Assembly (NCBI GenBank): GCA_036381315.1
Contig: DASVDB010000160.1
Coordinates: forward strand, 1-47,479
DNA: 47,479 nt
Reading direction: 5' to 3'
From: Bacilli bacterium
GTDB taxonomy: Bacteria > Bacillota > Bacilli > Paenibacillales > KCTC-25726
Of this stretch, positions 42,957-45,538 are shown one piece after another. The stretch's first letter is position 1. Every line of letters starts with the position of its first letter. Under the pieces are notes generated by a model. The model was not told where the DNA came from and ran no database searches. It saw only the letters and a list, made by a program, of their open reading frames with translations. Position numbers and translations under genes: made by a program.

Positions 42957-43352
42957 ATGTATTGGGACGGTTGGAATACGGAGCGAATCGTCATCTTATT
43001 TGTCAGTTTGGCCTATTTGCTGATCGGCATCCAGGTTACCATGTTTCATTACCGGCAAAATTTTCACCGCAAAATCATGTGGGCGCCTGTGCTGGCATCG
43101 CCGCTGTTTTTTGTTTGCGGGATGGCGTACGTGTTTTACCGGGTTGATTGGCTGCATTCGTTATTTGTCGTGCTGATGTGGGTCGGCGTCATTGCCGGAG
43201 TCGTCGGTTTTTACATGCATACGCAAGGCGTTCGCGTTCGCGTGGGCGGCTGGTCGGTGCGCAATTTCCTGATCGGACCGCCGGTCATATTGCCGCTTTT
43301 GTTTGGTGCGTTGGGCGCGCTGGGGCTGATAGCCGCATATATGCTGCCGTAA
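42957..43352 (+). CDS. Four-helix membrane protein of unknown function
   Basis: The 131-residue protein has four hydrophobic segments at about residues 9-28, 40-61, 66-86 and 105-128, with a short basic cytoplasm-like loop between the last two (TQGVRVRVGGWSVRN). I do not recognise the family. It starts at ATG 42957 with a weak GAGGCGAG site, and it ends 27 bases before the subunit 3-like gene, so it may be a membrane anchor or quinone-facing partner for the GMC flavoprotein. It has no CXXCH haem motif and no conserved histidine pair that would suggest a cytochrome. Confidence 0.7.
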   Translation: MYWDGWNTERIVILFVSLAYLLIGIQVTMFHYRQNFHRKIMWAPVLASPLFFVCGMAYVFYRVDWLHSLFVVLMWVGVIAGVVGFYMHTQGVRVRVGGWSVRNFLIGPPVILPLLFGALGALGLIAAYMLP

Positions 43353-43379
43353 AATATGGAACCAAGGGAGGCGCATCCG

Positions 43380-43970
43380 GTGACGCAAGAAAGCCGATAT
43401 CCCGGATACGACGTATTAAAAGAACAAACGGAATGGGACGACCATACGCGCTCCATTGTCGTCGGGCGGACGGAACCGGCGCCATTAAAAGCGTTGACGC
43501 AAGAGGAAGTGGACACGCTCAGACACCTTTGCCCGCTGTTTGTGGATGATTATCGGGCCGAGGTGATCGATTATGTGATTCGCCATGTCGATGAAACGAT
43601 TACCTCGAAAACCGGCGAAAGTGAGCGCAAGCTTAATGTGCCAAAAGCCGCCGAGCTGATTCGCGGCGGTTTGCAGCGGATTGAAGAAGACGCGTTAACT
43701 TTATGGCATAAACGATTAGCGGGGTTAACCGTTTCGGAGCGCGCGGAAATGATCCAAAAGTTGCTGCACAATCAAGGAAACGCGTCCGTTTGGGAGCAAT
43801 TTCCCCAGGCGGAATGGGCGCAAAAAATATTGCGGCTGACGGTAGAGGCATATTGTTCGCATCCCATCGTATGGTCGGAAATGGGCTATGGCGGCCCCGC
43901 TTATCCGCGCGGCTATGTGCGTATGGAAATTGGGATCACGGATCCATGGGAGGCAAAGAAAAGTCAATGA
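43380..43970 (+). CDS. Gluconate 2-dehydrogenase subunit 3 family protein
   Basis: The 196-residue helical protein has the pattern of the small subunit of membrane-bound sugar and gluconate dehydrogenases: LTQEEVDTLRHLCPLFVDD, a conserved C-terminal YCSHPIVWSEMGYGGPAYPRGY and a final GITDPWE. In Proteobacteria this subunit carries a Tat signal that exports the flavoprotein; here no signal is present, so the complex probably stays inside the cell. I chose GTG 43380, 7 bases after AAGGGAGGC; an in-frame ATG at 43356 has no ribosome site. It overlaps the GMC gene by four bases (ATGA). Confidence 0.85.
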   Translation: MTQESRYPGYDVLKEQTEWDDHTRSIVVGRTEPAPLKALTQEEVDTLRHLCPLFVDDYRAEVIDYVIRHVDETITSKTGESERKLNVPKAAELIRGGLQRIEEDALTLWHKRLAGLTVSERAEMIQKLLHNQGNASVWEQFPQAEWAQKILRLTVEAYCSHPIVWSEMGYGGPAYPRGYVRMEIGITDPWEAKKSQ

Positions 43971-45538
43971 AGCGAAAATACGGCGGAGAAACAGTCGATG
44001 CTGTGATCGTGGGCGCTGGCGCCGCCGGGGGCGTGCTGGCGAAAAATTTGAGCGTGGCGGGGCTGAAAGTGGTCGTGCTGGACGCCGGGCCGTTTCGCGA
44101 TCCGCAGCATGATTTTGCGAGCGACGAATTGGCCATGAAAAATCTTGGCTGGCAGGATACGCGCATCGTAGCCGGGCAAAACCCGCTCACCATGGGGCAC
44201 AACAACTCCGGCCGCGGAATCGGCGGCGGAACGGTGCATTTTACCGGCGTATTTTTACGGTTTCACGACGCCGATTTCAAAGCGCGCACATTGGACGGGG
44301 TGGCGGACGATTGGCCGATTGCCTACAAAGACCTCGAACCTTATTATGACAAGGTGGAAAAAGATATTGCCGTTTCCGGTCCCAAACATTTTCCCTGGGG
44401 AGAATTCCATGGCCCGTATCCATATCCGGAACGGGATCCGTTAAGTCCGAATGCATACATATTCCGGCGCGGTTGCGAAAAATTGGGCATTCGTTCATCT
44501 GTAGCGCCGCTGGCAATTTTGTCCGCGCCGTTCGACGGCCGGCCGCCTTGCATCAACCGCGGATTCTGCAATCAGGGCTGCATGCCGAACGCCAAATTCA
44601 GCACGTTAATCGTGCATATCCCGCAAGCGATCAAAGCGGGCGCGGAAGTGCTCGCCGATTGCATGGTGACCAGGGTGAACGTGGATAAGCGGGGAAGGGC
44701 GACCGGCGTCACCTTCGTGCATCAAGGCAAAGAATATGAGCAAAAAGCCAAACTCGTCATTTTATCCGCGTTTGTGGTCGAAACGCCGCGTTTGCTGCTA
44801 AATTCGGCGACGCCGCAATTTCCCGACGGATTGGCGAATTCAAGCGGCTGGGTCGGCAGGGCCATCATGACACACAGCAGCCATGACGTGTACGCCAAAT
44901 TTGCCGAAGAGATAAGGCTGTATAAAGGGACACCGGTGCTGGCGACAACCCAGGATTTTTACCGGACGCAAGCAGGCAACGATTTTGTCCGCGGCTATAC
45001 GCTGCATGCGCATGGCGCAAGGCCGGTGGAATTTGCCTCCGGCATCGCCAAAGCCGAAGGCGGCCCTGTCTGGGGCGGCAAGTTGCGGTCGACGCTGTTG
45101 GATTACAATCTGTATGGGCGCGTTACGCTGGTCGGGGAAGTGCTGCCCAACCCGGAAAACCGGGTTACATTGGCAGCGGAGAAGGATGAGTATGGTTTGC
45201 CGCGGGCGCAAGTTACGTTCAGTTATGGCGACAACGACAAGCGGCTAATCGCGCACGCCGTAAAAAAGATGAGCGAAATTCTGGAAGCGGCGGGCGGCAA
45301 AACCGAATATGTCGTGCCGGATACGGCGCATTTGATGGGCGGCTGCCGAATGGGGAACGACCCCGGCAATTCGGTGGTCAACAGCTACGGCCAAACGCAC
45401 GATATCAAAAATTTGTTTATTTGCGATGCGAGCATTTTCGTGACATCCGGCGCGGGCAATCCGACCAATACGGTCATGGCGCTCGCCGAACGCGCATCGG
45501 AATATATTGTCGAACAGGCCAAAAAGCGCGAACTGTAA
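43967..45538 (+). CDS. GMC-family FAD-dependent dehydrogenase
   Basis: This 523-residue flavoprotein begins with the FAD motif VIVGAGAAGGVLAKNL and a GRGIGGGTVHFTG segment. It ends with the GMC C-terminal signature HLMGGCRMGNDP and GNPTNTVMALAERASE, with the catalytic histidine/asparagine region. C195, C201 and C205 (PPCINRGFCNQGCMPN) are spaced like the ligands of the 3Fe-4S cluster in bacterial FAD glucose dehydrogenase (established knowledge from that enzyme). No signal peptide or cytochrome c subunit gene is present. It pairs with the subunit 3-like protein; the substrate (gluconate, glucose, sorbitol or a cyclitol) cannot be told from the sequence. Confidence 0.88.
   Translation: MKRKYGGETVDAVIVGAGAAGGVLAKNLSVAGLKVVVLDAGPFRDPQHDFASDELAMKNLGWQDTRIVAGQNPLTMGHNNSGRGIGGGTVHFTGVFLRFHDADFKARTLDGVADDWPIAYKDLEPYYDKVEKDIAVSGPKHFPWGEFHGPYPYPERDPLSPNAYIFRRGCEKLGIRSSVAPLAILSAPFDGRPPCINRGFCNQGCMPNAKFSTLIVHIPQAIKAGAEVLADCMVTRVNVDKRGRATGVTFVHQGKEYEQKAKLVILSAFVVETPRLLLNSATPQFPDGLANSSGWVGRAIMTHSSHDVYAKFAEEIRLYKGTPVLATTQDFYRTQAGNDFVRGYTLHAHGARPVEFASGIAKAEGGPVWGGKLRSTLLDYNLYGRVTLVGEVLPNPENRVTLAAEKDEYGLPRAQVTFSYGDNDKRLIAHAVKKMSEILEAAGGKTEYVVPDTAHLMGGCRMGNDPGNSVVNSYGQTHDIKNLFICDASIFVTSGAGNPTNTVMALAERASEYIVEQAKKREL

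Follow-up and report, generated by a model that had tools for sequence, protein, structure and literature searches.

How does a GMC flavoprotein of the iron-sulfur type pass on its electrons when its paired subunit carries no export signal and there is no cytochrome c beside it? The question is raised by a three-gene cluster in a Bacilli bacterium. The window that we analysed, the whole stretch of 47,479 nucleotides, is an entire contig of a 2.78-Mb genome, in which the GMC gene of the cluster is present as a single copy. An earlier note on this DNA had described a small cluster of redox genes at 42957-45538; three genes, here called mem, s3 and GMC, lie exactly there, all on the forward strand:

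42957..43352, + strand: mem, a four-transmembrane (four-TM) protein of 131 aa from an unnamed family
43047..43049, + strand: codon of mem H31, a histidine that never varies and sits at the end of TM1 predicted to be cytoplasmic
43218..43220, + strand: codon of mem H88, likewise a histidine that never varies, at the end of TM3 predicted to be cytoplasmic
43356-43970 by the longest open reading frame (204 aa), likely 43380..43970 (196 aa), + strand: s3, a homolog of gluconate-2-dehydrogenase subunit 3 (hitchhiker; PF13618) without a Tat signal
43967..45538, + strand: GMC flavoprotein, the catalytic subunit, 523 aa (PF00732/PF05199)
44549..44581, + strand: C195-x5-C201-x3-C205 of GMC, predicted 3Fe-4S ligands aligned to Cys212/218/222 of BcGDH (codons: C195 44549-44551, C201 44567-44569, C205 44579-44581)

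Downstream, a sodium:solute symporter gene (PF00474; 45618-47280, minus strand) converges on the GMC gene and is preceded by a gene for a 60-aa membrane protein; the pair recalls YhdT-PanF and is not conserved near other GMC copies. In many draft assemblies the contig breaks off some 0.5-1.5 kb after GMC, which would fit a long repeat, for instance an rRNA operon, at this place (among them G055, G091, G145, G067, G151, G165, G043, G101, G121 and G107).

The catalytic subunit and s3 are of an already known kind. Both GMC_oxred_N and GMC_oxred_C score above their cut-offs in the window protein, and a PDB search gave fructose dehydrogenase (FDH) as its best solved relative (E 4e-61) and also matched the FAD glucose dehydrogenase of Burkholderia (BcGDH, E 1e-58), with alignments spanning more than 430 aa. 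The cysteine motif, which had been likened to the 3Fe-4S site of FAD glucose dehydrogenase, proved exact in its positions: all three cysteines align with those of FDH and BcGDH, and in BcGDH they have been assigned as the 3Fe-4S ligands (PMC6719666). This spacing is not a matter of chance, since C195, C201 and C205 are invariant in 53 distinct orthologs (66-82% identity). The same is true of the catalytic pair H455/N498. H91 aligns with BcGDH His105, which may form a covalent link to FAD, and position 91 is a histidine in 42 of the 53 orthologs. GMC is thus a member of the 3Fe-4S GMC family with predicted cluster ligands.

The s3 protein matches Gluconate_2-dh3 at 51 bits (cut-off 23.4; E 2.3e-13), and a PDB search with it yielded chance matches only. 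Its ATG start at 43356 is probably eight codons too long, as a strong Shine-Dalgarno sequence (AAGGGAGG, approximately 43364-43371) stands in front of an in-frame GTG at 43380 and homologs begin near the equivalent position. The choice of start leaves the main point unchanged, namely that no Tat or Sec signal is present in the window s3 from either position. Orthologs likewise have no N-terminal Tat-type signal and only incidental RR pairs; what they share at the N-terminus is a Y-x11-WD-x2-T-x6-R block. The earlier picture of a subunit 3-like protein that lacks a Tat signal and overlaps the GMC gene (by 4 nt, ATGA) is therefore retained. In four loci (L003, L004, L005 and L007) s3 is degraded or deleted and mem and GMC are kept under constraint, with pairwise dN/dS of about 0.03-0.06 for GMC and 0.04-0.18 for mem, from which it follows that this hitchhiker subunit may be dispensable.

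How closely, then, does mem belong with this pair? Among 399 Bacilli genomes, a GMC ortholog was found in 51 and mem in 52, with both in 50; the one GMC-only and two mem-only exceptions are all fragments. The co-occurrence (Fisher p of about 5e-60) is overstated by its p value, as the genomes are not independent. Within the order (201 genomes), GMC occurs in 82, mem in 73 and the two together in 72. The gene order mem-s3-GMC recurs with near-constant spacing across 22 genera and again in a broader sample of the phylum (L195-L204), and the three genes adjoin one another at almost every locus. Paenibacillus koleovorans and P. mesophilus are among the named carriers. The linkage on which the earlier interpretation had been made to depend is hence conserved. 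Its statement that a cytochrome c subunit is missing also held up, with no open reading frame carrying at least two CxxCH motifs in 57 GMC neighbourhoods, the window included. Some genomes also carry second copies of GMC and mem that are frameshifted or truncated (G147:C13, G199:C15, G171:C1:4998248, G175:C8 and G280:C27), a sign that the cluster has been gained and has decayed more than once.

The membrane protein itself fits no established family. It had been described as an unknown four-helix protein, and its AlphaFold model (pLDDT 91) indeed contains four TM helices (residues 8-34, 42-61, 64-95 and 111-129), with no Pfam or NCBIfam model above cut-off. The N-terminal domain of ethylene receptors (ETR1_N, PF25487) was considered and set aside, having scored 17.8 bits against a cut-off of 27 and in only one of 40 members. 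A PDB sequence search with the mem profile found no relative, and a Foldseek search of the model against the PDB found no fold relative (best E 0.23). In an alignment of 31 diverse homologs, 24 columns are invariant. H31 and H88 are invariant in two alignments and sit about equally deep towards the ends of helices 1 and 3; further polar residues are invariant or nearly so (Q26, R33, Q34, N35, R95 and N103). Lysines and arginines number 2.1 in loop 1-2 and 2.7 in loop 3-4, whereas the opposite side has 0 and 0.4. From these positive-inside charge counts alone, the histidine ends are predicted to be cytoplasmic, that is, on the side where an unexported s3-GMC pair would have to be. We propose that mem is the electron-accepting membrane subunit, with either a heme b or a menaquinone site, keeping in mind that two conserved histidines in a sequence are not proof of a heme.

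A second line of evidence comes from a duplicated relative of mem. A search of the phylum detected open reading frames of about 290 aa that contain two mem units, each of which matches the mem profile (HMM 67-89 bits); a comparison of the two families by hhalign gave a probability of 98.7% and E 2.1e-16. All four histidines of these 8-TM proteins (H48, H106, H182 and H240) are invariant and correspond to H31 and H88 in both repeats. Next to the tandem gene, 7 of 9 loci (L187, L188 and L190-L194) have a gene for an anchored cytochrome in which CxxCH occurs eight times, and the other two (L186 and L189) have one for a monoheme cytochrome c. Several copies of the octaheme cytochrome c/tandem pair can be present per genome, and literature searches found no published description of it. 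The tandem protein (L186-L194) is hence a homologous membrane domain with both histidines per repeat kept, but it differs from mem in its exported c-type cytochrome partner, in the lack of a GMC gene nearby and in its predicted topology: positive charge is found at the N-terminus, in loop 2-3 of repeat 1 and in the linker, the reverse of mem, with repeat 2 less clear. The histidine ends of its first unit would accordingly point out of the cell, to the side of the exported cytochrome. The tandem model, built from nine sequences, is of moderate confidence (pLDDT 74), and Foldseek searches of the mem and tandem models against the PDB identified no known cytochrome b fold for either, with no match better than E 0.2. 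As in both families the histidines seem to lie on the side of the redox partner, the simplest reading is that this is the face of electron exchange, which supports an electron-transfer role for mem.

The genes next to the trio offer indications of its substrate. Clustering of flanking open reading frames showed a LarA homolog 0-53 bp upstream and on the same strand in 25 distinct loci, and an ortholog of B. subtilis YitF, of the enolase family, in 16 loci, where it is usually divergent. The two never occur at one locus; at L146, YitF is inserted between s3 and GMC. The identification of YitF is from neighbour c10, which matches it at 502 bits (PDB 2gdq). The upstream gene c14 and the LarA of the window's own genome score best to the LarAH5/LarAH6 malate racemase groups of the nickel-pincer LarA superfamily, although the LarA homologs reach only about 400-415 bits against NCBIfam NF052593 (LarAH6), below its 500-bit equivalog cut-off. 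A TPP enzyme, closest to pyruvate oxidase and acetolactate synthase, is found near 19 loci, and at L136 it lies 35 bp behind GMC and is followed by an SDR gene. Given that the LarA homologs characterised so far are racemases or epimerases of 2-hydroxy acids, and that 2-oxo acids are the substrates of this class of TPP enzymes, the conversion of a 2-hydroxy acid to a 2-oxo acid is the best-supported substrate class, as judged from these neighbours. A mandelate pathway was not adopted, as the similarity of the TPP enzyme does not establish it as a benzoylformate decarboxylase. UgpC, HprK, Lgt, NlpC and TIGR00106 genes near Paenibacillus copies represent a conserved chromosomal region, and a sugar-transport context was therefore dismissed.

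None of the genes assigned here to the putative pathway adjoins the trio in the window. LarA, TPP and SDR genes are present in the same genome but dispersed: LarA (L185 9918-11183) still occupies its ancestral site next to hprK, lgt and a regulator of the family that accompanies it in Paenibacillus, and the TPP-SDR pair (L210 6385-8943) adjoins cotE- and mutS-like genes, named from sequence. The placement of these genes looks as if one ancestral cluster had been split. A YitF ortholog was not found in the genome. Literature searches for YitF, and for a GMC protein with a membrane subunit, returned no functional description.

Our main reading, to which we would assign a probability of roughly 55%, is that the trio is a cytoplasm-facing, membrane-attached 3Fe-4S GMC dehydrogenase that passes electrons from a 2-hydroxy acid through mem to menaquinone. 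GMC would oxidise its substrate at C2 with FAD, and the electrons would move to the 3Fe-4S cluster and from there to mem, with the cytoplasmic side of mem around H31/H88 as the docking surface. The cofactor of mem could be a bis-His heme b, or menaquinone could be held directly as in complex II, and mem would in turn reduce the menaquinone pool. LarA or YitF may provide the right stereoisomer or a precursor, the TPP enzyme and SDR may process the 2-oxo acid product, and s3 would act as the assembly (hitchhiker) subunit. The idea of a cytoplasm-facing dehydrogenase whose electrons leave via mem had been put forward before; it gains from the linkage, the histidine pattern and the tandem homolog, but the loss of mem in one Paenibacillus clade, to which we return below, weighs against it.

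Other explanations of the same data have to be considered. The complex could be as described with mem having no redox cofactor at all: mem would be an anchor with a quinone pocket, and menaquinone would receive its electrons straight from the 3Fe-4S cluster, on the model of complex II or ETF:QO. Such an arrangement, which strikes us as rather unlikely, would be consistent with the presence of just two conserved histidines, both on one face, with conserved polar residues (the six listed above) that could bind a quinone head group and with the position of the BcGDH cluster, which is on the surface of the protein (PMC6719666); on the other hand, the histidine pair is exactly duplicated in the octaheme-linked tandems, which looks more like bis-His heme sites. 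It is doubtful, and somewhat more so, that the trio is a sugar, polyol or gluconate dehydrogenase, even though its nearest solved relatives are fructose and glucose dehydrogenases, s3 bears the name of a gluconate dehydrogenase family, YitF resembles acid-sugar dehydratases and gluconate is itself a 2-hydroxy acid. The known activities of LarA homologs and TPP enzymes argue against a sugar, and gluconate, glucose, sorbitol and inositol, the substrates suggested in the earlier note, are not favoured by recurrent neighbours that are LarA or YitF, a TPP enzyme and an SDR.

A further alternative to a role of mem in electron transfer would be that it is a transporter, a maturation factor or an anchor for the substrate pathway, with GMC electrons going to a soluble acceptor or oxygen. 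Here the relevant cases are 11 Paenibacillus-type loci with s3-GMC and no mem (L081-L091, from 10 mem-less genomes plus one second copy), a clade that makes up 10 of the 82 genomes with GMC in the order. At L091 the last 16 codons of mem persist just upstream of s3, and sister loci carry LarA at the place where L091 has none, which means that mem was deleted along with LarA. Mem is thus not indispensable everywhere: one Paenibacillus clade lost it and retains s3-GMC, with GMC intact and under purifying selection (dN/dS of about 0.05). Paenibacillus also has a second cytosolic s3-GMC type (L096-L099), about 43% identical, with the C-x5-C-x3-C motif and no membrane gene; in three of these loci the following gene is maybe a cupin-type regulator. 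Both sets of loci are what one would expect if mem were not an electron carrier, but the near-perfect co-occurrence of mem and GMC elsewhere and the linkage of mem homologs to c-type cytochromes are not. Moreover, GMC of the mem-less clade carries the substitutions A454Q (beside the catalytic His), H91N and N202L (in the Fe-S loop), which suggest that it has changed function. We regard a non-carrier role as the least likely of these alternatives.

Returning to the dehydrogenase with mem as electron acceptor, the catalytic pair is familiar, and what is new here is the cytoplasmic setting, the absent cytochrome c and the unnamed membrane module. This suggests that the trio is an undescribed respiratory entry point in many Gram-positive bacteria. 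If so, many Paenibacillus-, Brevibacillus-like and other Bacilli would have an extra respiratory dehydrogenase, the unnamed mem family would gain a function and YitF, a structurally solved orphan, would gain a context; the linked racemase, decarboxylase-type and reductase genes would make the substrate directly testable. A broader proposal, which we hold more tentatively and at somewhat less than even odds, is that mem founds an unrecognised family of bis-His, quinone-reactive modules used in both orientations: as a single unit facing the cytoplasm under a 3Fe-4S GMC protein, and as a tandem facing outward under an octaheme cytochrome c. The Bacilli form would then be a 2-hydroxy-acid:menaquinone oxidoreductase whose substrate is supplied by LarA or YitF.

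Two known systems are useful for comparison. Complex II (succinate:quinone oxidoreductase) shows no subunit homology with the trio and resembles it in function only, having a cytoplasmic flavoprotein, a 3Fe-4S cluster as the last one and a small membrane anchor that bears histidines. Closer by descent are the BcGDH, fructose (FDH) and gluconate (GADH) dehydrogenase complexes, which share with the trio a GMC subunit with the C-x5-C-x3-C motif, the catalytic His/Asn and a paired subunit 3. While subunit 3 of these complexes has a Tat signal, that of the trio has none; while they have a multiheme cytochrome c subunit, the trio has a four-TM protein instead; and while they are periplasmic, the trio is predicted to be cytoplasmic. 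If our main reading is correct, the trio would represent a periplasmic, cytochrome-c-coupled type of enzyme that has been rebuilt to work in the cytoplasm with quinone.
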